A stretch of 45,276 nucleotides of DNA from a virus, in the IMG/VR virus record IMGVR_UViG_3300006162_000002, positions 1 through 45,276 of that record, one strand, 5' to 3'. Below, in pieces: positions 1 through 39,118 of this stretch. Each line of letters opens with the position of its first letter. Position 1 is the first letter of the stretch. The translations under genes were made by a program, and so were the position numbers. The notes beneath the pieces were generated by a model. It was not told the DNA's origin. It saw only the letters and a list, made by a program, of their open reading frames with translations, and made no database searches.

Positions 1-110
1 CACCCTCGATACGGCCGCTCCGATCAAGACCTTGCTCAACGACCTCCTCGACAAGATAGCGCTAGTCGAAGACGACAAGGGTCACGAGCACGGATCCGAC
101 GGGAAATTCG
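1..110. repeat. Terminal direct repeat, left copy (matches 45167-45276)
   Basis: The first 110 bases are identical to the last 110 bases of the window. The repeat lies inside the portal-kinase gene, and the reading frame continues through it without a break. The sequence is therefore a circular or terminally redundant genome opened within this gene. It could be an assembly overlap of a circular map or a genuine short packaging repeat; the sequence alone does not decide. Confidence 0.95.
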
Positions 111-1141
111 TTTCGAAAGGCGAAGGCGGCGAGGCTCAACAAAAGTCAGAGTCCCCTAAACAGAAAGCTGAAAACTCTAAACAGACAGGCACGACCGAGA
201 CCCAAGCGGACTATAAACCCGATGGAGTCCACGTCCGGCCCGGTGGGTTCCTCGAGCGGAACAAAGTCGGGGAGCCAGTGTCGAAACCGATCGGTTCGCT
301 TCATGCCGACTTCGACCGGCTCCCTCACCTTGACCAGGAGCACTATGACCGTCTCAACTCGCACTATAAGGCGGCGATGAAGGTCGACACGGCGCTCGAG
401 GTCAAGACGGGACCAGAGCAGAAGGGAGAAAAGCTCGAGCGGGTCACGGACGCGGACACTCCGGAGATCATGCGGCTCCGAAAAGCTCAAGCCCAGTTCC
501 GCGAGGATTTCAAGAAAGCGACCGGCCTCGATGACACGAGCCATGTCGCGACACCAGAACGCGAGGCGCTCCGGAACTCGATCGCTCGAGACTTGTTCGG
601 GAAAGGGGCCGCCAAGCAAGAAAAGAAGGCCTACCTCATCTCCGGCCCTCCCGGATCCGGGAAGTCGTCCGCGATCAAGTCGCTCGGCCTCCTCGACCCC
701 GAGAAGTTCGGAGGCATGGAGATCGACTCAGACTACGCGAAGTCGCTCCTCCCTGAGTTCAACGCCGGACGCTCGGCCGACCTGGTCCATGAGGAGGCGG
801 CCGACATCGCGGAGAGAGTGCTCCAACACGCGATCTCCGGAGGCCATAACATCGTCCATCCGATCGTCGGGAAGTCGGTCGAAGGCCTCGAGCGGAACAT
901 CAAGAAGCTCAAGGAGGCGGGCTACCAAGTCGTCGTCCATAACATCGAGATGGAGACGGAGAGGTCAGTCGAGTCAGTCGCCGCGCGGTTCCACCGAAAT
1001 GGCCGGTTCGTCCCGCCGGAGTACGCTCAAAGCGTCGACCACAAACCCTCGCGAGCTCACTCGATGGTAGCCGAGGCGATGAAAGACTATCCCGGGGTCT
1101 CCTTCACCCAGCAACACGCGGACGAGCTCCGAAAGAAGTAG
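1..1141 (+). CDS. Portal protein fused to zeta-toxin-like kinase (C-terminal part)
   Basis: This is the continuation, across the circular junction, of the gene that starts at 43575. The joined protein is about 910 residues. After the portal domain comes a charged, Gly/Lys/Gln-rich linker containing the string GHEHGSDGKF. A P-loop NTPase domain of the zeta-toxin/polynucleotide-kinase type follows, with Walker A GPPGSGKSS near residue 745 of the fusion and a hydrophobic strand KKAYLIS just before it. Zeta toxins phosphorylate UDP-GlcNAc or related substrates; such domains are known in phage and plasmid polyvalent proteins that may enter the host with DNA. No antitoxin-like gene lies next to it. 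The fusion is seen directly; delivery with the virion is inference. Confidence 0.8.
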   Translation, partial: TLDTAAPIKTLLNDLLDKIALVEDDKGHEHGSDGKFVSKGEGGEAQQKSESPKQKAENSKQTGTTETQADYKPDGVHVRPGGFLERNKVGEPVSKPIGSLHADFDRLPHLDQEHYDRLNSHYKAAMKVDTALEVKTGPEQKGEKLERVTDADTPEIMRLRKAQAQFREDFKKATGLDDTSHVATPEREALRNSIARDLFGKGAAKQEKKAYLISGPPGSGKSSAIKSLGLLDPEKFGGMEIDSDYAKSLLPEFNAGRSADLVHEEAADIAERVLQHAISGGHNIVHPIVGKSVEGLERNIKKLKEAGYQVVVHNIEMETERSVESVAARFHRNGRFVPPEYAQSVDHKPSRAHSMVAEAMKDYPGVSFTQQHADELRKK

Positions 1142-2128: not shown

Positions 2129-2434
2129 ATGGCCTCACTCATCAAAGAACCCGCGACGATCGCCGCCTTGAGCGCTAGCACGGTCGCGACGGCCGCCGGA
2201 GTGCATGTCGACGCGGTCAACGGTTACCGGGCCGGGATCCCGTCTTGGAGGCTCGAGGAGCATGGAGTGATCGCTAGCCTCGCCTCATACCTCGGGGTCG
2301 ACGCTCAGATCATCCGCGCGAAAGTCCATCAAGCCAAAATACAGGCGACCCAAAACCGGGGTCACGGTACTGGGTCGCCTTTGGGTTCGCTCGGAGGGTC
2401 GAGGATCCCGTTCCGTCAGGTTACACGGTCTTAG
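2129..2434 (+). CDS. Possible small DNA-binding protein (HTH-like), uncertain
   Basis: A plus-strand ORF of 101 codons starting MASLIKEPATIAAL, divergent from the lysozyme gene. Residues 10-65 have the spacing of a Cro/XRE-like helical regulator (A-x-x-A-A-G-V, EEHGVIASLASYLGVD). Against it: no clear ribosome-binding site, and its last 30 codons run through a hairpin that is a good minus-strand terminator and into the opposite gene. If it is not coding, 2092-2342 is a roughly 250-bp intergenic region carrying the 12-bp palindrome CAACCGCGGTTG at 2092-2103. Confidence 0.35.
   Translation: MASLIKEPATIAALSASTVATAAGVHVDAVNGYRAGIPSWRLEEHGVIASLASYLGVDAQIIRAKVHQAKIQATQNRGHGTGSPLGSLGGSRIPFRQVTRS
2343..2380 (-). 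terminator. Terminator after the small HTH gene
   Basis: A 10-bp perfect stem AGGCGACCCA/TGGGTCGCCT, with an inner ACCG/CGGT pairing. On the minus strand it is followed by GTATTTTGG. It ends the transcript that includes the HTH gene at 2421-2624 and separates it from the lysozyme gene. Confidence 0.6.
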
Positions 2435-2624
2435 GTTTTCTCCCTCGTTTGTGCTCAGGGAGGACGACGACCGGGCTAGGGATGGCCCATCCTCCGGGGA
2501 GTTTGGTCGCTCCCTGGATCCGGTTGATGTCGCATAGTCGGCGAATTCTCCTCGCGCTCACGGGCCTACCGTTCTCGGTGAGCTCCTCGGCCGCGGCGAT
2601 CGGGTCGATGATCTTGGTGCTCAT
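2421..2624 (-). CDS. Small helix-turn-helix protein (67 aa)
   Basis: A basic 67-residue protein starting MSTKIIDPIAAAEEL. The ATG is 6 bases after a consensus AAGGAG. The order NGRPVSARRIRRLCDINRI followed by a Pro/Gly-rich wing and GGWAIP resembles excisionase/MerR-like winged HTH proteins (Xis, HTH_17), and it ends in the basic tail HKRGRKPKTV. It may regulate this block or act as a recombination factor, but no integrase is present, so a regulatory role is more likely. A degenerate copy of the block's promoter lies directly upstream. Confidence 0.7.
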   Translation of the reverse strand: MSTKIIDPIAAAEELTENGRPVSARRIRRLCDINRIQGATKLPGGWAIPSPVVVLPEHKRGRKPKTV

Positions 2625-2630
2625 GGTTCG

Positions 2631-2660
2631 CTCCTTTATACCATACTTGGCACGGTTTAG
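2631..2660 (-). promoter_or_regulatory. Degenerate copy of the block promoter
   Basis: On the minus strand CCAAGTATGGTATAAAGGAG resembles the downstream half of the repeated promoter of this block (CCGAGTGTGGTATATTATA). The -10-like TATAAA runs directly into the AAGGAG of the HTH gene. The -35 part is not recognisable. Confidence 0.4.
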
Positions 2661-3126
2661 GCGGCCTCAAACTTCGCTTTCGCGGTCAAGTCCTGAGATT
2701 GGTGCATCGCGTAGGAGTAGTAGCCTTTCCCGATGATCACGTGGTCGATGATCTCGATCCCCATCATGTGAGCGGAGGCGGCCAACCGGCGGGTCAAGAT
2801 CGTGTCGTCAGCGCTCGGGATCGTCGTCCCGCTCGGATGGTTGTGAGCGACGATCATGCGAGCGATCCCTTTCGCGACGGCCTCCTCAAGACCTGAGCGG
2901 GGTTCACGATGCAGGAGTCGACGTCTCCGCGGTGGACTAACTCCTGATAGACGACCTCGAGTTGAGTGTTCAGCCCGATCGCGACGAAGTTCTCGACGGG
3001 CTCATGGCTCATCCAATCCAAGTAAGATCGGACGGCATCGCCGGAGTTCAGGGACGGGGCCTTCTCGCGAACCATAGCGGGAGGATCCGTGGGGCGATAG
3101 TTGACGGGAGCAGTCTTCTTTCTCAT
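2657..3126 (-). pseudogene. RadC/JAB-domain protein, frameshifted
   Basis: The start MRKKTAPVNYRP follows AAGGAG at 4-bp spacing. The first frame (3126 to about 2890) carries the RadC-like strand order ending DSCIVNPAQV. The second frame carries IVAHNHPSG followed by PSADD, the JAMM metalloprotease signature HxH-x7-S-x2-D. The two halves join perfectly if one base is added in GTCTTGAGG near 2888-2894, where the expected reading is VLEEAVAKGIARM. No slippery heptamer is present, so this is a deletion (mutation or sequencing error) rather than programmed frameshifting. RadC-like JAB proteins are common in phages and mobile elements; their function is not settled. Confidence 0.75.
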
Positions 3127-3144
3127 CTTTCTCCTTACGACTAT

Positions 3145-3171
3145 AATATACCACACTCGGTACACAAAAAG
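3145..3171 (-). promoter_or_regulatory. Repeated block promoter, copy 1
   Basis: The minus strand reads CCGAGTGTGGTATATTATAG, identical to the other copies over the spacer and -10 (TATATT). The -35 region is diverged to a T-run because it is the U-tail of the hairpin at 3172-3201. It drives the RadC/JAB gene. Confidence 0.7.
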
Positions 3172-3201
3172 AATAGGCCCGGATCTCGATCCGGGCCTAT
3201 T
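3172..3201 (-). terminator. Terminator abutting promoter copy 1
   Basis: A perfect 14-bp inverted repeat AATAGGCCCGGATC/GATCCGGGCCTATT. On the minus strand it is followed by CTTTTTGTG. It terminates the 4065-3217 operon and is directly continuous with the next promoter. Confidence 0.85.
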
Positions 3202-3216
3202 GGGTGAGTCAGCTAC

Positions 3217-3435
3217 TTACCGGCGGTTTGTTTGTCGTCCGGAGTATCCGGGAGCGGAGACCCATGTCCCGGCGGCCTTCCGGTCGTCTTCCGTTCGCAG
3301 GTACACGGCCCAAGCGAGGACGTCCCGTTTCCGCGCGTCGGGTTCGTCCATCAACATCGATCCGAGGGTCTTAGCGTCGTGGCTTTCGGCTAACTTGGCG
3401 GCCGTCGAGCGTTCTCGAGCGTTGAGGTTAGTCAC
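3217..3435 (-). CDS. Unknown small protein (72 aa)
   Basis: A GTG start overlaps the end of the upstream gene by 8 bases and has an AGGG about 6 bases before it, so it is probably translationally coupled. The product MTNLNARERSTAAKLAESHD is charged and helical, with TEDDRKAAGTWVSAPGYSG near the C-terminus. It is the last gene of a three-gene operon that ends at the hairpin at 3172-3201. No family is recognised. Confidence 0.65.
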   Translation of the reverse strand: MTNLNARERSTAAKLAESHDAKTLGSMLMDEPDARKRDVLAWAVYLRTEDDRKAAGTWVSAPGYSGRQTNRR

Positions 3436-3793
3436 CGTCGTACCCTTGATCGATGAGATCTCTAGCGAACTTGACCGCGCTATCGCGATCTTGGTACCAA
3501 AAGGTGCTTACGGCTCCGTCCAAGTCGATTGCGATCACTTCATACCCTCCTTCGGGTCGACGTGACGGACACCAAGTACACCAGCGCTTAGGCGGGTCGG
3601 CGACGACTTCGAATCCCGCAACGGTCAGATCTCGAACGTACCTGACGTGGCCATAATACGGCCAACCGACCATTGGGTTCCCGTCGCGATCGGTCGTCAA
3701 CGTCAAGCGCAACGTTTTCGCGACGGCCTCGGCCTGATCTCCGCTGACTTCAAAGAAGTCGCCTTTTCTGATTGGTTGGATGGTGGTTTTCAC
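3428..3793 (-). CDS. Unknown protein (121 aa) with CxxC
   Basis: The GTG start lies 4 bases after AGGAGG and overlaps the upstream stop (GTGA). The product begins MKTTIQPIRKGDFFEVSGDQ. It contains the pair WCTWCPSRRPEGG near residue 75 and a segment AIDLDGAVSTFWYQDRDSAV resembling a small alpha/beta domain. There is no membrane segment. It is the middle gene of the 4065-3217 operon. No function can be assigned. Confidence 0.7.
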   Translation of the reverse strand: MKTTIQPIRKGDFFEVSGDQAEAVAKTLRLTLTTDRDGNPMVGWPYYGHVRYVRDLTVAGFEVVADPPKRWCTWCPSRRPEGGYEVIAIDLDGAVSTFWYQDRDSAVKFARDLIDQGYDGD

Positions 3794-4065
3794 TTTGCCT
3801 CCTGAGCGGTCAATCTGGTCAAGGGAGTCCCGCTTGGAGCGGTTCCGGGTTTGTCGCTGACGGAGCTCACGCAGACCATACCGATGAACTTGCCTCCCAA
3901 GGTTTCAACGTAACATTGGCCCATCGTGCCATTTTTGGGACATCCGTAGGGTTGAACGATCCGGACGACGGTCTCAGCCTCGAGACCCTTGGGGCCGTGG
4001 ATCAAGTCCATCAAACCCAACGGTCGGTAAACCCTGACGCTTCCGGTTCTCGGTGCTTTTCTCAT
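3790..4065 (-). CDS. Unknown small protein (91 aa)
   Basis: First gene of the operon under promoter copy 2. Start MRKAPRTGSVRVYRP; a GGAAGG lies upstream and a GTG two codons earlier is possible. The core LMDLIHGPKGLEAETVVRIVQP resembles the start of the 65-residue product at 4525-4722 (LMELLGWEKGN then KGLKAHAVVKI), suggesting the two are diverged paralogues within the same block. Two cysteines are present (YGCPKNG and MGQCYV). Function unknown. Confidence 0.7.
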   Translation of the reverse strand: MRKAPRTGSVRVYRPLGLMDLIHGPKGLEAETVVRIVQPYGCPKNGTMGQCYVETLGGKFIGMVCVSSVSDKPGTAPSGTPLTRLTAQEAK

Positions 4066-4096
4066 TTTCACTTTCCTTCCCTCTCGGGACATATAT

Positions 4097-4125
4097 AATG
4101 TACCACACTCGGTATAGAAAAGCAA
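4097..4125 (-). promoter_or_regulatory. Repeated block promoter, copy 2
   Basis: On the minus strand: -35 TTGCTT (4125-4120), 17-bp spacer, -10 TACATT (4102-4097). The spacer reads TTCTATACCGAGTGTGG, one base different from the other copies. The -35 overlaps the terminator tail at 4124-4154. Confidence 0.75.
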
Positions 4126-4154
4126 GAGGCCCGGGAAACTTTCCCGGGCCTCTT
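4124..4154 (-). terminator. Terminator abutting promoter copy 2
   Basis: A perfect 15-bp inverted repeat AAGAGGCCCGGGAAA/TTTCCCGGGCCTCTT with a single central base. On the minus strand it is followed by GCTTTTC. It ends the single-gene unit 4168-4434. Confidence 0.85.
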
Positions 4155-4167
4155 GGAATCGAATTGG

Positions 4168-4434
4168 TCAATCTGGGTCGGCTACTAGTCCCCGTCCTTG
4201 GTAGGTTAATTGTTGGTTGTATCCGGGATGGATATAGACCACTTGGGGATCGTGGTCGCCATAGTCCATGTCCATCACGAATTGAGAGACGAAGACATGA
4301 CCGTAGATCGCCGTGTACTCGACGCCGTGTCGTGGGTCGACCGTCCGAACAACGGCGGTCGGGGCTCCGTCGCTCGCCATTTTGTTTTCGATCGCTTCGG
4401 CGAGGGTTTTGTAGGTTTTCCGGTTTCGGATCAT
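4168..4434 (-). CDS. Unknown small protein (88 aa)
   Basis: Start MIRNRKTYKTLAEAIENKM, 10 bases after AAGGAG. It forms its own transcription unit between promoter copy 3 and the terminator at 4124-4154. The middle, PTAVVRTVDPRHGVEY, echoes the VVRIVQP segment of the 3790-4065 product, so common ancestry is possible. Acidic aromatic C-terminal half (MDMDYGDHDPQVVYIHPGY). No family recognised. Confidence 0.7.
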   Translation of the reverse strand: MIRNRKTYKTLAEAIENKMASDGAPTAVVRTVDPRHGVEYTAIYGHVFVSQFVMDMDYGDHDPQVVYIHPGYNQQLTYQGRGLVADPD

Positions 4435-4458
4435 CGTCTTGGTTCTCCTTACGTGCTT

Positions 4459-4487
4459 AATATACCACACTCGGAATAGAAAAGCAA
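4459..4487 (-). promoter_or_regulatory. Repeated block promoter, copy 3
   Basis: On the minus strand: -35 TTGCTT (4487-4482), 17-bp spacer TTCTATTCCGAGTGTGG, -10 TATATT (4464-4459). It drives the 4168-4434 gene. The -35 is part of the 3' arm of the hairpin at 4481-4517. Confidence 0.8.
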
Positions 4488-4517
4488 GGAGCAATAAAAA
4501 AGATTGCTCCTTGCTTT
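4481..4517 (-). terminator. Terminator whose 3' arm contains a -35 box
   Basis: A perfect 15-bp inverted repeat AAAGCAAGGAGCAAT/ATTGCTCCTTGCTTT with a 7-base loop. It ends the operon 5185-4525. Its minus-strand 3' arm includes TTGCTT, the -35 of promoter copy 3. Its stem differs in sequence from the neighbouring hairpins while the fusion to the promoter is the same. Confidence 0.85.
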
Positions 4518-4524
4518 CATGGTT

Positions 4525-4722
4525 TCAGCGTTCCCCAAGTACGTCGAGGCACTTGAGACACTTGGGCCAAGTCGGTTTGTATGTCAAATTGTCGTCACTG
4601 AGCACGACGAGCGCTTTCGGGTCGCGACACGCGGTTCTCCGCTTTCCGTTGATCTTGACGACGGCATGAGCCTTGAGGCCCTTGACCGAAGGGTTACCCT
4701 TTTCCCAACCGAGGAGCTCCAT
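4525..4722 (-). CDS. Unknown small protein (65 aa) with CxxC
   Basis: The ATG overlaps the upstream stop (TGATG), with GGGAGG just before it. The product MELLGWEKGNPSVKGL ends WPKCLKCLDVLGER, a CxxC pair that, with an earlier Cys (TACRDP), could bind zinc. It resembles the 3790-4065 product at its start. Third gene of the operon from promoter copy 4, ending at the hairpin at 4481-4517. Confidence 0.65.
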   Translation of the reverse strand: MELLGWEKGNPSVKGLKAHAVVKINGKRRTACRDPKALVVLSDDNLTYKPTWPKCLKCLDVLGER

Positions 4723-4964
4723 CAAACCCTCCCGTAGATCCGGTAAACCGATTGGTAGCGGGACACGAGACACGTCTTTTTCTCGACCACGTCGACCGAT
4801 TCGATGCACGTGACCTTGTCGCGGCCGAGTACTCGGTTGAGTGCCATGACCCAACGGCTAGCGGAGTCCCTCGAGACGCACGTGACGACGACTTGATGAC
4901 CGTAACACTCGATGCGCTTCTTGGGGATCGGGAGTTTCTTGAGCAGGGTTTCGAACTTTTCCAT
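4722..4964 (-). CDS. Unknown small protein (80 aa)
   Basis: Start MEKFETLLKKLPIPKKRIEC with AAGG about 6 bases upstream. Basic alternating segments such as GHQVVVTCVSRDSASRWV and KVTCIESVDVVEKKTCLVSR suggest a small alpha/beta fold with three or four cysteines. Middle gene of the three-gene operon and coupled by 1-base overlap to the next gene. No family recognised. Confidence 0.65.
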   Translation of the reverse strand: MEKFETLLKKLPIPKKRIECYGHQVVVTCVSRDSASRWVMALNRVLGRDKVTCIESVDVVEKKTCLVSRYQSVYRIYGRV

Positions 4965-4984
4965 AGCTTTTCCTTGGTGGTCGG

Positions 4985-5185
4985 TCAAACCATCTCTCCG
5001 TCTGGGATGAAGGTTTGAGGGAAAGGTCGGATCAGTCCCCTCTCGAGATCTGATCGGCTGATCATGTGCCAACCGTCGCTCCACTTCACACAATAGCCCG
5101 TCTCGGTGCCCTCGTGATAATGCAGGTTGTTCCTATCGAAAACGACCCTGAGAAGTTGGATCTCTTGGACTCGGCTCATCTTCAC
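4985..5185 (-). CDS. Unknown small protein (66 aa)
   Basis: The GTG start at 5185 is 8 bases from AAGGAG and is preferred; an ATG two codons later (5179) gives 14-base spacing. The product reads MKMSRVQEIQLLRVVFDRNN and then YCVKWSDGWHMISRSDLERG, a compact beta/alpha sequence with several aromatics. First gene after promoter copy 4. Function unknown. Confidence 0.65.
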   Translation of the reverse strand: MKMSRVQEIQLLRVVFDRNNLHYHEGTETGYCVKWSDGWHMISRSDLERGLIRPFPQTFIPDGEMV

Positions 5186-5217
5186 TTTGCTTTCTCCTTC
5201 CCTCTCGGGACAACTAT

Positions 5218-5246
5218 AATATACCACACTCGGAATAGAAAAGCAA
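5218..5246 (-). promoter_or_regulatory. Repeated block promoter, copy 4
   Basis: On the minus strand: -35 TTGCTT (5246-5241), 17-bp spacer TTCTATTCCGAGTGTGG, -10 TATATT (5223-5218). Drives the operon 5185-4525. The -35 and part of the spacer lie inside the long palindrome 5226-5294. Confidence 0.8.
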
Positions 5247-5294
5247 TAGGCCCGGGAAACTTTCCCGGGCCTATTGCTTTTCTATTCCGAGTGT
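5226..5294 (-). terminator. 69-bp perfect palindrome: terminator merged with promoter sequence
   Basis: Two 34-bp arms (5226-5259 and 5261-5294) are exact reverse complements around one central base. The inner part is the terminator stem also seen at 4124-4154 with one pair changed. The outer part is the promoter -35 and spacer, duplicated in inverted orientation without a -10. The outer end touches the stop codon of the 5294-5599 gene. Confidence 0.85.
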
Positions 5295-5599
5295 TAGGCG
5301 AACATGCCTATTCCTTCCAACTCGTAATCGCAGACCTCCTCGTATCCGCAATCAGCAGAACAGCCAATCACGTACCCGTAGGGGCCGTCTTCCAAGACTC
5401 TCATGGGAGTCGCGTCACCGTAATTCTCGGCGCAATCGGGGCAATAGCCCGCGTCGGCGATCTGGTCATAGAGCTCGGCGGAGATGTCATAGACCCTGTT
5501 CCCGGCCTTGGTTTCGATCCTAGGGGATCGCCGAACCTGATAGAGCAGACCTCCGCGACCCTTCATGATCTCAGTTTTCAGGTTCATTTTGCGTCTCAT
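5294..5599 (-). CDS. Putative zinc-binding small protein (101 aa)
   Basis: Start MRRKMNLKTEIMKGRGG, 9 bases after AAGGAG. The C-terminal half has paired cysteines CPDC near residue 54 and CSADC near residue 82, a four-cysteine zinc-ribbon arrangement, followed by the acidic end YEEVCDYELEGIGMFA. It forms a single-gene unit between promoter copy 5 and the 69-bp palindrome and is the first gene of the leftward block. Function unknown. Confidence 0.7.
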   Translation of the reverse strand: MRRKMNLKTEIMKGRGGLLYQVRRSPRIETKAGNRVYDISAELYDQIADAGYCPDCAENYGDATPMRVLEDGPYGYVIGCSADCGYEEVCDYELEGIGMFA

Positions 5600-5632
5600 T
5601 TTTTCTTTCTCCTTCCCTCTCGGGACAATTAT

Positions 5633-5661
5633 AATATACCACACTCGGAATAGAAAAGCAA
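5633..5661 (-). promoter_or_regulatory. Repeated block promoter, copy 5 (first of the block)
   Basis: On the minus strand: -35 TTGCTT (5661-5656), 17-bp spacer TTCTATTCCGAGTGTGG, -10 TATATT (5638-5633). Unlike copies 1-4 it has no terminator hairpin upstream, fitting the start of the leftward block. The 5662-5709 stretch lies between it and the rightward gene at 5710 and shows no strong plus-strand promoter. Confidence 0.75.
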
Positions 5662-7688: not shown

Positions 7689-9401
7689 GTGGGTTCTTTT
7701 TCGCTAGTCGTTCCATGCGCCGGACTGTTCAGGCATAACGAGCGACTATGGCCTCAAATAAAGTCGGCGATGCTCGACCACGACGTTGAGCTCCTCATCA
7801 TCAACGATAAGCCGTTCGCTCCGCGATTGCTCGCGCTCCTCGCCTCCCTCGATCTCCACTTCAAAGCGGTCAAGGCCTCGAGTAACCGGATCGGAGAGAT
7901 GATGGCGGTCGGAGTGTCGGCCGCGAGCAAGGAGACTTGTGTTTGGATGCACGACGACGTCGAGGTCGACCTCGATCTCCTGTTTAAGCTTGGTTCCAAA
8001 ATGGCGGCCGTCCCGATCGTGAAGGGGTCTCACAACCGAGACCAAGCAAGCGGAGGAACCTGGACAACGAGGCCGGTCGACCGTTGCATGATGGTCTTTG
8101 ACACCGAGACGGTCAAGAAACAGGCCGGTCGACTTTGCGGGTTTGAGATCGACGGGTACCAAGTCGCGGCTCAACGGATCCTCGCCGAGGCCGGGGTCTT
8201 TCCCGAGATCCTTCCGCTCATCGCGAGCCATGAAGGCTCGGCTACCCTTTGCAACGTTTCCGACCGTGATTACCAGGACGCTTTCAAGAGGGACATGGAG
8301 GCGCTCGCTCGAGTTTGCGGAGTCCACATGGAGCATGGCCAACGTCCGGCGATCTCGAGGATCCTGCCCTTCCCTCGAAAGGACGTCCATATCCTGAGCG
8401 GAGAGGTCGACCCGCTCGATGAGATCAACCAAGTCGACGCGAAGTCTTTCGTCTGGAAACGGGAAGTCTACGGCCGCGTGACGATGGGGGACAGTTATTC
8501 GATCCCTCCGCTCATGGACACCTACGTCATGGCACTCCCTGACGGGACGGGGATCGGTGACGCGATCATGCACGGTTCGGCCGTCGACCACTTCAAACGG
8601 CTCTATCCTCACATCAAGACAATCTGTTACATCGTCAAAGGCGGCCCGTCGGTCGTTTGTCAAAGGATGCCGTGTTTTGATCAAGTGGTCGAGCTCTATC
8701 AGACTCAGGAGATCCCGTCAAACGCTCGGACATGGAACATCGCGAACGGAGTCGAGGGGACGGCCGATCACGGGTTCTTTGAGCTCGGAATCGACAACAT
8801 CCCGATACAAGAGAGGATGCTCCCGGTCATCAAACCAGGAGGCGAAGACACATCCGACGACCTTGGGGACTTCGCGGTCGGGATCCAACTTAACGGAGGT
8901 TGGATCCATAAACGTTACTCCCGCGCGGACGAGCTCGCCGACCTCCTCCATCGAGAGGGTTTCCAACCGGTTTTCTTTTGTACCGACGACGGGATCCGGA
9001 GCGACCCTCGTTTTCCTCGGTACGGGGACGGCCCGCTCGATCGGTTCATGCACCAGATCAAGCGGCTCCGTTGCTGGGTCGGGTTTGACTCGGGAGCGAG
9101 TTACATCGCGAACGCGGTCGGAACCCCGTCGGTGTGGCTCTATGCGACTCACAACCCGTCCGGGCTGATCGGTTCTTGTGGAGCTCGGACTCCTTACCGG
9201 ACTATCTGGAAAGACCAACCTCCCCTATGCGCGGCAAGGTACCGGATGTCTTGCCGTCCGTTCGAAGGATGCGCGGTCGACCGACCTGACCGATGCTTTC
9301 ACCGGAACGGAGGCCCGGGAGCGAACTGTCTCGATGAGATTGAACCGACCGAGATCTTGAAACATGTGACAGAATTGACCGGCCATGCGACAATCGCCTA
9401 G
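7689..9401 (+). CDS. Two-domain glycosyltransferase (GT2-like plus GT9/heptosyltransferase-like)
   Basis: 570 residues from a GTG start 8 bases after AAGG. The N-terminal half (about 1-240) resembles a GT-A nucleotide-sugar enzyme, with VELLIINDKPFAPR and MHDDVEVDLDLL as the acidic metal site. The C-terminal half (about 275-570) resembles GT-B heptosyltransferases, with DGTGIGDAIMHGSA and GFDSGASYIANAVGTPSVW. It ends in a Cys-rich tail. It lies between head genes and overlaps the next gene by 17 bases, so it is expressed with the virion. Likely role: attaching sugar to a virion protein or host surface; the substrate is unknown. Confidence 0.75.
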   Translation: MGSFSLVVPCAGLFRHNERLWPQIKSAMLDHDVELLIINDKPFAPRLLALLASLDLHFKAVKASSNRIGEMMAVGVSAASKETCVWMHDDVEVDLDLLFKLGSKMAAVPIVKGSHNRDQASGGTWTTRPVDRCMMVFDTETVKKQAGRLCGFEIDGYQVAAQRILAEAGVFPEILPLIASHEGSATLCNVSDRDYQDAFKRDMEALARVCGVHMEHGQRPAISRILPFPRKDVHILSGEVDPLDEINQVDAKSFVWKREVYGRVTMGDSYSIPPLMDTYVMALPDGTGIGDAIMHGSAVDHFKRLYPHIKTICYIVKGGPSVVCQRMPCFDQVVELYQTQEIPSNARTWNIANGVEGTADHGFFELGIDNIPIQERMLPVIKPGGEDTSDDLGDFAVGIQLNGGWIHKRYSRADELADLLHREGFQPVFFCTDDGIRSDPRFPRYGDGPLDRFMHQIKRLRCWVGFDSGASYIANAVGTPSVWLYATHNPSGLIGSCGARTPYRTIWKDQPPLCAARYRMSCRPFEGCAVDRPDRCFHRNGGPGANCLDEIEPTEILKHVTELTGHATIA

Positions 9402-10243: not shown

Positions 10244-10924
10244 ATGTCCGCTCCATCGAAATACGGCTACTTTAGAGACCCTCACGATCCTCGAGACTTT
10301 CTTGTCGACGGGATCCCTTATGGCGCGGCCGAGTTACCTCCGCGCGTTTCCCGGTCAGCCTCGACCGGCCCAGTCTTTGACCAAGGTGACTCCTCCGAGT
10401 GTGTAGCCTATTCGGTCGCGGGACTCAAGCGTTACCAAGCTTGGTCAAAGGACAAACAATGGCCTAGCCTCGACGTCGACGGGTTCTACCAGGCCTGTAA
10501 GGCGGTCGACGGATCCCCTGACACTCAAGGGACTTTTCCTCGAGCCGCGATGCAAGTCCTCCAACAAACGGGGATCAAGGCGGCTGACGGGACTGTCTAT
10601 AAAATCGCCTCCTACTCGAGATGCGCGAGCGTCTCGGACATCAAGGTTTCTCTCGCGACCGAGGGGCCGGTCGTCGTCGGCCTCCACATTTACGACGTCG
10701 ATTGGAACAACCTCACCCCGGGATCCGTCATCCCCGTTCAAGTCCCTCCCCAAGCCGAAGGCCACTGTATCCTTTTTGTCGGATACGACGACCTCCTCGA
10801 GGCTTTCCAAGTCCGGAACTCGTGGGGAGCGGATTGGGGTGAAGACGGCCACTGTTGGATCCCGTACAACTACCTGACCCAGGTCGACCCCGACTTTGAC
10901 GCATGGACGGGAGTGGCCGCGTGA
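10244..10924 (+). CDS. Papain-like cysteine protease (peptidase C1)
   Basis: 226 residues with all C1 landmarks: oxyanion-hole Gln47 and nucleophile Cys53 in VFDQGDSSECVAYS, catalytic His174 in AEGHCILFVGYDD, and Asn192 in RNSWGADWGEDGHCW. No signal peptide; it begins with a short YFRDPHDPRDF prodomain-like stretch common to the family. It is first behind the strong promoter and precedes a membrane protein and the capsid protease/scaffold. Papain-type enzymes are rare in phages. It could mature virion proteins, act on host proteins or help lysis; the sequence does not say which. Confidence 0.85.
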   Translation: MSAPSKYGYFRDPHDPRDFLVDGIPYGAAELPPRVSRSASTGPVFDQGDSSECVAYSVAGLKRYQAWSKDKQWPSLDVDGFYQACKAVDGSPDTQGTFPRAAMQVLQQTGIKAADGTVYKIASYSRCASVSDIKVSLATEGPVVVGLHIYDVDWNNLTPGSVIPVQVPPQAEGHCILFVGYDDLLEAFQVRNSWGADWGEDGHCWIPYNYLTQVDPDFDAWTGVAA

Positions 10925-23200: not shown

Positions 23201-24957
23201 TGAGGTACGTTTTCCGTCCCCGGTCGGTGCATGTCCGGATCGCCGCGGGATGCAACCTAGGTTGTTTCTTCTGCGAAAGGGAAGCACTAGCCGGGGGCGG
23301 AAACGAAGGCCGGAAAAAGCGAGGGACGGTCGTTTTCACGGACGGCCGCGACGAGCTCCCGGTCGCTGATGACATGAGCCCTGAAACTTGGGCTCATGTC
23401 AAAGAGAAAGTCTTTCCTCACGTCGACCACGTCGAGCTAGGCGGTCTAGGTGAGCCAACCCTTGGCGCTATGTTCTGCCAAGCCGCGAAAGACGTCATAG
23501 AGGCCGGGAAAAGCCTCTTTTTCTTTACCAACGGACACTACCTCGACCTCCCTCGAGTTCTCGAATCAGTCGGAGAATCCCCTCATGTCTCGGTGTCGAT
23601 CGATGCCGGTACTCCCGAAGGCTACTCAAGGATGAGAAAGGGGAACCTCGCTCACTTGGTCAAGTCCGTCAAAGCTTTCAAGGCCGCCAAACCTGGATCC
23701 AAAGTCGACTCTCAGTTCACCGCGATGGCGAGCAACATCGAGGAGCTCGCTCCGTGGGTTGAACTTTGCGCCGAGCTCGGGATCGGACGGAAGGAGCATG
23801 GGGAACAACTCCTCATGGTTCCGGCCGACCACCACGTCACCGACCGGGTCGAGGAGTCGCTCCGGTTCCTCCGTGACAAGACTCTCGAGAACGTTGCGAA
23901 GGCGAGGATCGCGGCCGATGCCGCCGGGCTCAACCTCGTCGTTCAAATGCCGGAATTCTCGACGGCCAACCCGAACGCGATCATCGACAACACCGACCCG
24001 CGAAAGATCCGGAGATGGGCCGACATCATGTTCTACGGACTGTCTCCATGCGGAGGGACGTCTCCGAGGGGAACCACGGGGACTACGGGGCCTCATTTGA
24101 CATCGATCACCGCGGCGAGAGCATTTTGGGACTGGGTTGTCACGGCCGAGACCACGGTCACGAACCCTCCTTACTTGACCGTCCCCGGCGGGACGACGAC
24201 GGTTTATCAGACCTTCACGACGACACCCGCAACTTACTTCCCGACGACCACAAACTACGGTGGGATATTGAACGGTACGGCCGTCGCGGGGTTTGCACTT
24301 TCCAACCCTCCCGGAAGCGTGGCAAGCACGACGGCGACGACCGCGTTAGACCACACCACGACCTACACCGCAACGGGAGTAAACACTTTAGGTTATACGA
24401 CGACCCTGGTAGGGATCACCACGATCCAGCAAAACCAGACCAACACGACTTTTAACTACCCTCCTCAACTCACAGTACCAAACTACACTCACGGGAACGA
24501 CATCCTCTATAAAGTAAACGAAGTGCAATTCGCGGTTGAACAATACAACGGCACACAGCTTAATTACATAACTAATGTTTTCGTCACGACCGCGCTCGGG
24601 ATAACGACCACGGTCACCGACAATGTTTTCGTAACTCAACTTGTGGCCGCACTTGTCGACGTCGCGTTCGTGGTAGGGGAGGTCGACGTGATCGGGTACT
24701 CGGCAAAAAGGGTGCCTCCTCCTCCCGACGTCTCGGACGAGCCTCCCGAGTTCAAAGAAGTCCCCAAAGAGATGTATGTCGATTACGACGGTACGGCCTG
24801 GTCTTGCCTCGCGCGGCTCAAGATCGGAGACTTCAACGTCGACCCATGGGCCAAAATCGTTGACGACAACGCTAGCTATCAGCTTTTCCTCGCTAATTTT
24901 TACTATGTAAAGAGCGGAGACAATTCGAATTGTCGCGCATGTCCACGGAGAGACTAA
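23200..24957 (+). CDS. Radical SAM/SPASM-like enzyme with a Thr-rich insertion
   Basis: 585 residues. CNLGCFFC (Cys18, Cys22, Cys25) is the CX3CX2C motif that binds the [4Fe-4S] cluster, and VELGGLGEPTLG resembles the GGE-type SAM motif; the barrel runs to about residue 280. A twitch/SPASM-type cysteine set follows but is split. SPC (Cys284) lies before, and DYDGTAWSC (Cys536) and NCRACPRRD (Cys578, Cys581) lie after, a roughly 230-residue insertion rich in Thr, Asn, Val and Tyr (TTATTALDHTTTYTATG). Such enzymes modify peptides, sugars or RNA. The enzyme class is clear; substrate and the role of the insertion are unknown. Confidence 0.8.
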   Translation: MRYVFRPRSVHVRIAAGCNLGCFFCEREALAGGGNEGRKKRGTVVFTDGRDELPVADDMSPETWAHVKEKVFPHVDHVELGGLGEPTLGAMFCQAAKDVIEAGKSLFFFTNGHYLDLPRVLESVGESPHVSVSIDAGTPEGYSRMRKGNLAHLVKSVKAFKAAKPGSKVDSQFTAMASNIEELAPWVELCAELGIGRKEHGEQLLMVPADHHVTDRVEESLRFLRDKTLENVAKARIAADAAGLNLVVQMPEFSTANPNAIIDNTDPRKIRRWADIMFYGLSPCGGTSPRGTTGTTGPHLTSITAARAFWDWVVTAETTVTNPPYLTVPGGTTTVYQTFTTTPATYFPTTTNYGGILNGTAVAGFALSNPPGSVASTTATTALDHTTTYTATGVNTLGYTTTLVGITTIQQNQTNTTFNYPPQLTVPNYTHGNDILYKVNEVQFAVEQYNGTQLNYITNVFVTTALGITTTVTDNVFVTQLVAALVDVAFVVGEVDVIGYSAKRVPPPPDVSDEPPEFKEVPKEMYVDYDGTAWSCLARLKIGDFNVDPWAKIVDDNASYQLFLANFYYVKSGDNSNCRACPRRD

Positions 24958-27101
24958 TGAATATCAGGATCGTCATCCCAACACTCGACAAACCTTTTCT
25001 CTTAACTCAAACTTTGATGTCGCTCCGCGCGGAGATGAAGGACGGGGATTCTATCGTCTTGGTCGACAACGGCTCCGAACCCGAGACGCTTGGGGCGATC
25101 CGGGCCGACATCGACAACCCGAAAGCCAAAACGAGGATGATCGTCAACTCAGACCGCGGGAACTATTGCAAGTCGGTCAACATTGGGGTGAGCCATCCCG
25201 GAAACTATGACGCGCTCCTCGTGGTCAATAACGACGTCGTTTTCTCTCCCGGATCCCTCTCGAGGCTCAGGGAGTCCCTTTCAGATCAATGCGGGTTGGT
25301 GATCCCTCTCTCGAGCCGTTGCGTCGGTTCGCTGGGTGTCTCTCCTCCGGCCCTTGGAGATCCCTCTCGGGTCGAGGACATCTATGCCAACTATGAGAAA
25401 GTTTGCAAGTGGTGGAGGATCGCGTCGGTTCAGTTCTCCGGGATCCTCCCCGTTTCGGATCCCTACGTCCCTCAAGGCGGATATTGTTTCCTCATAGATC
25501 GGCGGTTATGGGATCGGCTCGGAGGCTTCGACCAGGATTACCGGATCTTCGGCGAAGACTACGACCTTTTCGCTCGGGCCGCTCGGTACACCAAGCTCTT
25601 TCAAGTCAGGGACGCCTATGTCCACCACCTCGAGCACCAGACGGTCAAAGAGATGCCGAGGCGGTTTGAAGAGTGGTGCCGGGGCAGGTTCCTCCTCACT
25701 GAGAAACGAGAAGGGAAACCCGAGACGGTCTCCGTCGTCATCCCGACCTATAACCGTTCCGACCTCCTTTTCGAAGCGATCGACTCGGTCGTCCGTCAGT
25801 CTTTCCAGGATTGGCGGCTCTATGTCGTTGACGACGGATCCGGAGATTGGGAGGCGATCCGCCAAGCGGCTACCAACCGGTTCTTTGACTACCAGGATCG
25901 TATCTGGTACTTCAACCTCGCGGACAACCGCGGGCCCGCGGCCGCGCGAAACTACGGGGTCTCCCTCTCACGCGGGAAGTACGTCGCTTTCCTCGACTCC
26001 GACGACACTTGGAACCCTGACCATCTCGCCAAGCATGTCGCATTTCACGAGTCGCGTCCCGGCCTTCTCATGAGCTACTCGAGGACGTCGTTCGCGTGGA
26101 GATGGAAAGATCCCGAGACCGGACGTTTCAGGTACCGGCCCGACGAACATCCCGAGGCTCAACTCCGCGGAGACCTTACGTTTGACCGTGACCGCCTCGA
26201 GAGAGAGAATTTCATCAAGACGTCGGCCGTCGTCGTTTGGGGAGACGTCGCGAGGTCGACCGAGTTCCCCGTCGAGGACGATCATCGCCTCGCGGCCGAG
26301 GACTGGAAATACTTCCGGATTTTAGCCGGGTTAAATGGAACGGTCGAACACCTCTATTCGACCACGGCCCGAACCTATTGGTCGAAGCGGTCCGACGGAG
26401 ACGCCCACCATTCTTCCCGACTTATTCCTTGGGCCAATTTTGGGGACGTCCCTGAACACTGGGGAGGCAGGATCCTCGCGTCACCAGGGAAAGACGGAGC
26501 CCTCACCGTCGTCATACCGACCCGCGAGAGGCCTCTCGAGGCCCGTACTCTCATGTCTAACCTCCCGGACGACGTTCCGGTCGTCCTTGTCGCCGACGGC
26601 CGCAAAAGCGCCGGTTACGTCCTCGAGCTCAGCCAAGCGAGGGAAGGGGTCGGGGCGGTCGTCATCGAGAAACCGAGCGGTGCGAGTTTCGCTCGGAACC
26701 GGGGAGTAGACCAATCCCTCACGGAATGGGTGTGGTTCATCGATGACGACGACATCCCGCTCCCCGGAGCGGTCGAGGCCGTCTCCAAATACTTCGGCCA
26801 GGCTGACGCCGTGGTCTGCCCTCTTTTCACCCATGCGGGAGACGGCGGCCTTTGTTTCACCGACGGCGCTTTCACGAGCGGGGTCTTTGTGAGGGTCGAT
26901 TTTTTCACTCGAGTCCATGGGTTTGACGAAGGCCTCCATATCGCCGAGGAGCGCGAGCTCCTCCAACGGATGAAGGACTTCGGAGCTCGCGTGGTCGAGT
27001 GTCCGACCCCGGTCGCGGTCAAAACCTCCGGGTCGAGGCATGTCGGCCATTTTGAGGCTCCGAAAACGCCCGGACGTCCTTTCCATGGAGGTTCGCGATG
27101 A
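24957..27101 (+). CDS. Three-domain family 2 glycosyltransferase
   Basis: 714 residues. The ATG at 24957 overlaps the radical SAM stop (TAATG) with GGAG before it. Three GT-A-like units in tandem: 1-255 (MNIRIVIPTLDKPF, LLVVNNDVVF), 265-500 (VSVVIPTYNRSDLLFEAID, FLDSDDTWNPDH) and 515-700 (LTVVIPTRERPLEARTLMS, FIDDDDIPLPG). Each has the nucleotide-sugar strand and an acidic DxD-type metal site; the first reads NND. Possibly builds a short oligosaccharide on one acceptor. It is sandwiched between the radical SAM gene and the tail hub gene. Confidence 0.85.
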   Translation: MNIRIVIPTLDKPFLLTQTLMSLRAEMKDGDSIVLVDNGSEPETLGAIRADIDNPKAKTRMIVNSDRGNYCKSVNIGVSHPGNYDALLVVNNDVVFSPGSLSRLRESLSDQCGLVIPLSSRCVGSLGVSPPALGDPSRVEDIYANYEKVCKWWRIASVQFSGILPVSDPYVPQGGYCFLIDRRLWDRLGGFDQDYRIFGEDYDLFARAARYTKLFQVRDAYVHHLEHQTVKEMPRRFEEWCRGRFLLTEKREGKPETVSVVIPTYNRSDLLFEAIDSVVRQSFQDWRLYVVDDGSGDWEAIRQAATNRFFDYQDRIWYFNLADNRGPAAARNYGVSLSRGKYVAFLDSDDTWNPDHLAKHVAFHESRPGLLMSYSRTSFAWRWKDPETGRFRYRPDEHPEAQLRGDLTFDRDRLERENFIKTSAVVVWGDVARSTEFPVEDDHRLAAEDWKYFRILAGLNGTVEHLYSTTARTYWSKRSDGDAHHSSRLIPWANFGDVPEHWGGRILASPGKDGALTVVIPTRERPLEARTLMSNLPDDVPVVLVADGRKSAGYVLELSQAREGVGAVVIEKPSGASFARNRGVDQSLTEWVWFIDDDDIPLPGAVEAVSKYFGQADAVVCPLFTHAGDGGLCFTDGAFTSGVFVRVDFFTRVHGFDEGLHIAEERELLQRMKDFGARVVECPTPVAVKTSGSRHVGHFEAPKTPGRPFHGGSR

Positions 27102-33705: not shown

Positions 33706-33787
33706 AGTGTTTGTATCGGTCGAGAAAATCGGAGGTAGGTAAGTCGAAAATGTGGCCGCCGGATCGTCCGGCTATCTGGTAGTGAAC

Positions 33788-33837
33788 CAACCCTCATGGA
33801 GGCCTCATGGACGACCACGAGGCCTCCATGAGGGTTG
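33788..33837. repeat. Long inverted repeat between the helicase and Acb2-like genes
   Basis: A perfect 19-bp stem (33788-33806 with 33819-33837) around a 12-base loop; each arm contains CCTCATGGAGGCCTC. No T-tract follows on either strand. Position suggests mRNA 3'-end or processing structure for the helicase transcript, or an operator for the following genes. The rest of 33706-33862 has a smaller GCCGGA/TCCGGC hairpin and no clear promoter. Confidence 0.75.
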
Positions 33838-33862
33838 ATCCATGAGGATCCGGGCTCCGGGA

Positions 33863-37106: not shown

Positions 37107-37175
37107 ATTATTTAGCCTCAGACCAAGAAATGTCAATCCCTACCCTTGACATTTATTGGTCTGAGGCTAAATAAT
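37107..37175. promoter_or_regulatory. Mirror-image divergent promoters within one palindromic operator
   Basis: Arms of 30 bases (37107-37136 and 37146-37175) are reverse complements with one mismatch around a 9-base centre. Each arm holds a full promoter. Plus: TTGACA 37146-37151, 16-bp spacer, TAAATA 37168-37173. Minus: TTGACA 37136-37131, 16-bp spacer, TAAATA 37114-37109. The identical spacers TTGGTCTGAGGC suggest one regulator controls both directions equally. Confidence 0.85.
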
Positions 37176-38834: not shown

Positions 38835-39118
38835 CCGGACTGGATGAAGGCCTCGAGGCCGCTTGTTCGGATCCGGAATGTGCGTACCGGTTCATCATTT
38901 ACGCTCACCCGGGATATTTCAACTCCGTGACCTGCTCCCTTTGTGGCAAACCGGCCTATGTGAAAACTCGAGGGTTTGACGTCTCACGCACTGTTTTCAT
39001 CGACGTCGTCCCTGAACCTCCTCGAGGTTACAGGATCCCCGGTTACATCGCTCAAATGCACTTGTCCCGCGGGGTCGTCGTTGCTCCTTGGACACCGAGG
39101 TTTACAATCGATGCCTAA
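38831..39118 (+). CDS. Zinc-ribbon protein (95 aa)
   Basis: GTG at 38831 overlaps the previous stop; GTGs at 38819 and 38822 are alternatives. CSDPECAYRF and CSLCGKPAYV form a four-cysteine zinc ribbon near residues 11-40. The remaining residues are beta-rich. It overlaps the primase-helicase start by 8 bases and might supply the zinc-binding module that primases often carry as a fused domain. Confidence 0.65.
   Translation: MTGLDEGLEAACSDPECAYRFIIYAHPGYFNSVTCSLCGKPAYVKTRGFDVSRTVFIDVVPEPPRGYRIPGYIAQMHLSRGVVVAPWTPRFTIDA

Follow-up and report, generated by a model that had tools for sequence, protein, structure and literature searches.

The promoter early stem-loops (PeSLs) of T4-type phages such as RB49 and phi1 (Arbiol 2010; Comeau 2014; both as cited in PMC4503421) are the closest known kind of element to the array reported here, which is an analogue of them and not a member. 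Halovirus HF2 carries two classes of short intergenic repeats (58 and 29 bp), and all nine repeats that were cloned were promoter-active, according to the account in PMC8707807. In cluster K mycobacteriophages a short asymmetric repeat (SAS), nearly always in one orientation, precedes many small non-structural genes, and some copies have an inverted repeat upstream (ESAS; PMC3203893).

The window, the whole stretch of DNA that was analysed, comprises the 45,276 bases of a virus record. Its block at 2343-5661 is probably a leftward series of short transcription units, each ended and restarted at a shared joint of terminator and -35 region. Each unit would start at one copy of an extended -10 promoter (core CCGAGTGTGGTAYATTA) and be read through one to three small genes to an intrinsic terminator, whose closing stem bases and U-tract would also serve as the -35 region of the promoter that follows. 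At each joint one polymerase would be released and a new one loaded, such that every packet would have a promoter of its own, equal to the others, and be shielded from read-through out of the packet before it. The units are probably early and would use the host polymerase. A preliminary description had proposed that RNA polymerase is ended and restarted at each cassette; the anatomy fits this, with U-tailed covarying hairpins and with an extended -10, a Shine-Dalgarno leader and a start codon at each joint, and it is from this sequence anatomy that we infer promoter activity, terminator activity and equal expression of the packets.

The genome and its likely host

The first and last 110 bases of the record are identical.

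1-110 and 45167-45276: direct terminal repeat of 110 bp, recognised by the identical ends

A second contig spans the end-to-end joint at 99.98-100% identity, and the genome is therefore complete, at about 45,166 bp. It encodes tailed-phage proteins, including a terminase large subunit (TerL), major head protein, endolysin, DNA methyltransferase, Dda/PIF1-type helicase and a primase-like protein. No close relative was found in INPHARED; TerL is less than 60% identical to that of every phage compared, the best-covered matches being about 28% (Tunturiibacter and Thermus phages), and a 570-residue head-region protein has no match among the phages compared.

38976-41453, plus strand: primase-like protein, shared with elements in Fimbriimonadaceae-family genomes

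This protein is 35-55% identical to proteins in 12 of 85 genomes of one family, reached through a Fimbriimonadaceae MAG, and the helicase and one further gene occur in the same order in two of those 12. The matches and the shared gene order point to Fimbriimonadaceae, a little-studied lineage of Armatimonadota, as the likely host.

Around the end of the primase-like gene, at 41380-41700, AACCTCACCAAACCTCACC repeats in both orientations are iteron-like and mark a candidate replication origin. A near-perfect inverted repeat (30-nt arms, 9-nt loop) lies between divergent genes at 37107-37175, and another at 33783-33842. Glycosyltransferase domains of family 2 (three stretches) and family 9 are found within the structural gene region at 24930-27101 and 7689-9401 (plus strand), and a papain-family (C1) cysteine protease is encoded among the head-region genes at 10244-10924 (plus strand). 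A 369-residue protein with a zeta-toxin-like kinase domain (PF06414) is encoded slightly downstream of the cassette block, at 32-1141 (plus strand).

Small-gene cassettes

The genes of the block fall into cassettes behind the promoter copies, as had been described, with one, three, one, three, one and one gene per cassette.

5294-5599, minus strand: cassette 1, 101-residue Cys-rich protein with no family above cut-off
4985-5185, minus strand: cassette 2 gene a, 66 residues, without recognisable family
4722-4964, minus strand: cassette 2 gene b, 80 residues, without recognisable family
4525-4722, minus strand: cassette 2 gene c, 65 residues, without recognisable family; its start overlaps the stop of gene b
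4168-4434, minus strand: cassette 3, 88-residue protein without recognisable family
3790-4065, minus strand: cassette 4 gene a, 91 residues, without recognisable family
3428-3793, minus strand: cassette 4 gene b, 121 residues, MutS domain I match (PF01624, E 1.3e-7)
3217-3435, minus strand: cassette 4 gene c, 72 residues, without recognisable family
2657-3126, minus strand: cassette 5, radC-like gene in two ORFs (2854-3126 and 2657-2857) separated by a frameshift
2421-2624, minus strand: last gene, 67 residues, weak match to phage DNA-binding family phrog_22141 (E 6.5e-4)

Most of these genes have a ribosome-binding site, and some stop and start codons overlap within cassettes; downstream of the promoter copies, the ribosome-binding site and start codon follow at about 20-60 nt. 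Third-position GC is 0.63-0.78, near the 0.70-0.77 of sampled structural and replication genes of the phage, and the ORFs therefore look like real genes. The only recognisable products are the frameshifted RadC, the MutS domain-I-like protein and the weak DNA-binding match. The frameshift in the radC-like gene, near 2880-2890, is either a real lesion or an assembly error. The MutS domain I match covers the first half of the 121-residue protein, and MutS-type proteins of the host class are 31-43% identical to it; it is a free-standing mismatch-recognition-like domain and may be a mimic. A role of the cassette genes in host takeover is possible, as a guess.

Repeated promoter-like copies

Five near-identical promoters and one degenerate copy had been reported. 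All six are present, but the fifth, which has lost its -35, is not near-identical to the others.

5633-5661, minus strand: promoter copy 1, TTGCTT-17-TATATT, first in the series; A/T-rich tract upstream, no hairpin before it
5218-5246, minus strand: promoter copy 2, identical to copy 1
4459-4487, minus strand: promoter copy 3, identical to copy 1, with a different leader
4097-4125, minus strand: promoter copy 4, two mismatches, -10 TACATT
3145-3173, minus strand: promoter copy 5, keeps CCGAGTGTGGTATATTATA; five mismatches, all in the -35 and upstream half, -35 TTCTTT
2637-2650, minus strand: degenerate core copy CCAAGTATGGTATA, mismatched at 2 of 14 positions, directly before the next gene, no hairpin

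The 29-mer TTGCTT-TTCTATTCCGAGTGTGG-TATATT, with its 17-nt spacer, is exact at 5661, 5246 and 4487 on the minus strand and recurs at 4125 with the two mismatches; no occurrence is expected from dinucleotide shuffles. The copies are confined to 2637-5661, with none elsewhere in the whole genome. What stays constant is the extended -10 core CCGAGTGTGGTAYATTA, the TGn extension (TGG TATATT) being found at every copy, and the most constant stretch comprises the extended -10 and about ten bases upstream of it. The -10 agrees with the consensus at five of six positions, TTGCTT at three of six and the -35 of copy 5 at two of six; at the degenerate copy (2637-2650) there is no -35 at the right spacing, and a generic sigma-70 scan demanding 9 of 12 matches flagged none of the copies. 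TTGCTT is thus a weak -35 and is absent from copy 5, and an extended -10 promoter is the better description. The joint TTGCTTTTCTATT is the same where there is no hairpin (5661) and where the stem is unrelated (4487), which argues that it has been retained for promoter function.

The conserved 17-nt core may instead serve mainly to bind a phage regulator, a repressor or an activator, that switches the block as a regulon, with the promoter merely overlapping it. Between copies 5 and 1 the core is identical at 18 of 18 positions, compared with 8 of 13 in the -35 block and 15 of 30 in the leader, a degree of conservation that a sigma-70 spacer does not need, and the degenerate copy keeps the core before the gene with the weak DNA-binding match. 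Candidate DNA-binding proteins of the phage are encoded at 2421-2624 and 43025-43441. The core nevertheless lacks a palindromic operator, and recent duplication could yield the same identity; we regard a regulator site as possible but rather doubtful.

Candidate terminators at the joints

A whole-genome scan of both strands with folding energies, in which a hairpin below -20 kcal/mol with a T-rich tail counts as strong, identifies seven strong minus-strand terminators in the genome. Four of these precede copies 2-5 and end inside the -35 hexamer.

5244-5276, minus strand: terminator hairpin core before copy 2, its final 3 nt also opening the -35; U-tail CTTTTCT
4482-4516, minus strand: terminator hairpin before copy 3; stem sequence unrelated, 3' arm holding the whole -35
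4123-4155, minus strand: terminator hairpin before copy 4; a homologue of the one before copy 2, differing by a compensatory change and reaching 3 nt into the -35
3172-3201, minus strand: terminator hairpin before copy 5; third homologous stem, its inner part changed and still pairing
2343-2380, minus strand: terminator closing the whole series, the fifth of the seven strong hairpins
5226-5294, minus strand: perfect palindrome of 69 nt with 34-nt arms, running from the cassette 1 stop codon through the terminator into the spacer of copy 2

The hairpins 5276-5244, 4516-4482, 4155-4123 and 3201-3172 overlap the hexamer by 3, 6, 3 and 2 nt respectively, which bears out the report that the U-tail or 3' arm supplies or overlaps the -35, and in three of the four joints the final stem bases and the start of the CTTTTC tail together form TTGCTT. 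The preliminary description had the preceding terminator run into the promoter at copies 1-4; this is what we see at the copies starting at 5246, 4487, 4125 and 3173, but not at 5661, which has no terminator before it. These candidate intrinsic terminators all have a GC-rich stem, a short loop and a U-tract.

The chance of four such overlaps is about 7e-12 if the hairpins could be placed anywhere in the genome, and about 4e-3 when each is confined to its own gap between stop codon and promoter. The gaps from stop codon to -35 are only 37-47 nt; with the restricted chance at about 0.004, compaction accounts for some of the fusion but not for the whole.

The stems had been said to differ in sequence around a conserved joint. 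The joint is indeed unchanged at the unrelated stem of the 4487 copy, but the other three (copies 2, 4 and 5) are homologous to one another, and where they diverge both arms have changed together so that pairing is preserved: T-A to G-C in CAATAGG/CCTATTG versus CAAGAGG/CCTCTTG, and GGGAAA/TTTCCC versus GGATC/GATCC. Such compensatory changes argue for selection on the hairpins. The palindrome gives the copy 2 terminator symmetry, with a T-rich tail on the plus strand; a plausible origin is palindrome correction through template switching.

The same stems bear on whether the block is one leaky operon, in which terminators are partial, internal promoters only boost expression and most RNA is long and polycistronic. 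Its genes are all co-oriented and tightly packed, and overlap within cassettes, as such an operon would have it, but U-tailed stems of 13-18 pairs at -20 to -33 kcal/mol make it unlikely.

Leaders, copy history and relatives

There are two leader types. In copies 1, 2 and 4 the leader is TGTCCCGAGAGGGAAGGA, in which a small UCCC-GAGA-GGGA hairpin can fold ahead of the Shine-Dalgarno sequence; in copies 3 and 5 it is CGTAAGGAG. The pairing of terminator type with leader type varies from copy to copy, a mosaicism inside one genome, and over the 91-nt leader-promoter-terminator unit copies 2 and 4 show 89% identity. The array appears to have arisen by duplication of a terminator-promoter-leader unit, with terminator and leader types exchanged later.

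The preliminary description had pointed to related phages as the place to look for the promoter. Searches of IMG/VR, of INPHARED phages and of 113 genomes from the class to which the Fimbriimonadaceae genome belongs gave no true match beyond this genome. In IMG/VR the promoter 19-mer, core 17-mer and leader 18-mer were searched, and four matches to the core were rejected, three being one and the same unrelated sequence and the fourth an isolated site on a contig without detectable homology. Neither the DNA of the region nor the joined cassette proteins matched INPHARED; in the 113 genomes these proteins gave only MutS-type matches to the MutS-I-like protein, and the promoter did not occur with three or fewer mismatches. 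Likely hosts and distant viral contigs hold syntenic elements that have parts of the replication module in common with this phage, but the repeated cassettes were not found in them. No relative covering the cassette region was found in IMG/VR, INPHARED or likely hosts, and conservation is therefore seen only between the copies of one genome.

These results also weigh on the idea that the units are PeSL-type mobile cassettes, with the terminator-promoter joints acting as recombination sites that shuffle small genes between related phages. The stem families and two leader types stand in mosaic combinations around one promoter, and for T4-like phages PMC4503421 gives reports of shuffling mediated by PeSLs. 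Against it, no related phage with different cassettes came to light in IMG/VR, INPHARED or the likely hosts, and a comparison of the cassette proteins with one another showed no convincing paralogy (best E about 0.02); mobility of this kind seems quite improbable.

It is very improbable that the hairpins act in single-stranded DNA, either as promoters or as processing sites, while the DNA enters the cell or replicates. In favour are the z of -15 that the palindrome at copy 2 has as single-stranded DNA, and the presence in the genome of a PIF1/Dda-type helicase and of iteron-like repeats. Copy 1, however, lacks a hairpin, and the single-strand promoter idea was rejected because the -10 lies unpaired outside the palindrome and the other three of the four hairpins stop short of the spacer and exclude the -10.

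Comparison with known systems

Like PeSLs, the array combines a repeated promoter with a stem-loop in gaps of 60-100 nt between small, mostly uncharacterised genes, with a shared leader and ribosome-binding site. In the RB49 genome, read directly, the gaps have a stem-loop between -35 and -10, or the -10 within the loop, and no U-tract; that region also holds an ordinary terminator with a U-tail, separated by tens of bases from the promoter downstream of it. Here, in contrast, the hairpin lies upstream of the spacer, ends in the -35 and has a U-tail. PeSLs are carried by T4-like myoviruses, whereas this is a 45-kb genome of a different virus group. Since both geometry and virus group differ, the array is not classed as a PeSL.

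The HF2 repeats resemble the array as short intergenic repeats used as repeated start signals, but they are archaeal TATA/BRE promoters, and the account cited here (PMC8707807) reports no fused terminator among them. SAS and ESAS share the oriented repeat ahead of small genes, in some cases with an upstream inverted repeat (PMC3203893). SAS, however, sits 3-7 bp ahead of the start codon, where the ribosome-binding site is, whereas the core here is upstream of that site and ends some 20-35 nt short of the start codons, and the inverted repeats of SAS do not behave as RNA hairpins (PMC3203893), whereas the hairpins here covary.

A bolder and decidedly speculative proposal makes the array a phage regulon: a dedicated factor would recognise the 17-nt extended -10 core, and the promoters would incorporate terminator tails as their -35 regions, the end of one packet being obligatorily the start of the next. 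It would then be a modular gene-loading platform of an Armatimonadota-lineage virus, evolved independently of the PeSLs of T4. Fusion of a terminator to the next promoter is known from T4-like phages, and its presence in an unrelated small phage with another geometry suggests an independent origin. If confirmed, the joint would be a natural stop-start part of 60-100 bp, and it would mark a pocket of uncharacterised small phage genes, probably directed at an Armatimonadota host.
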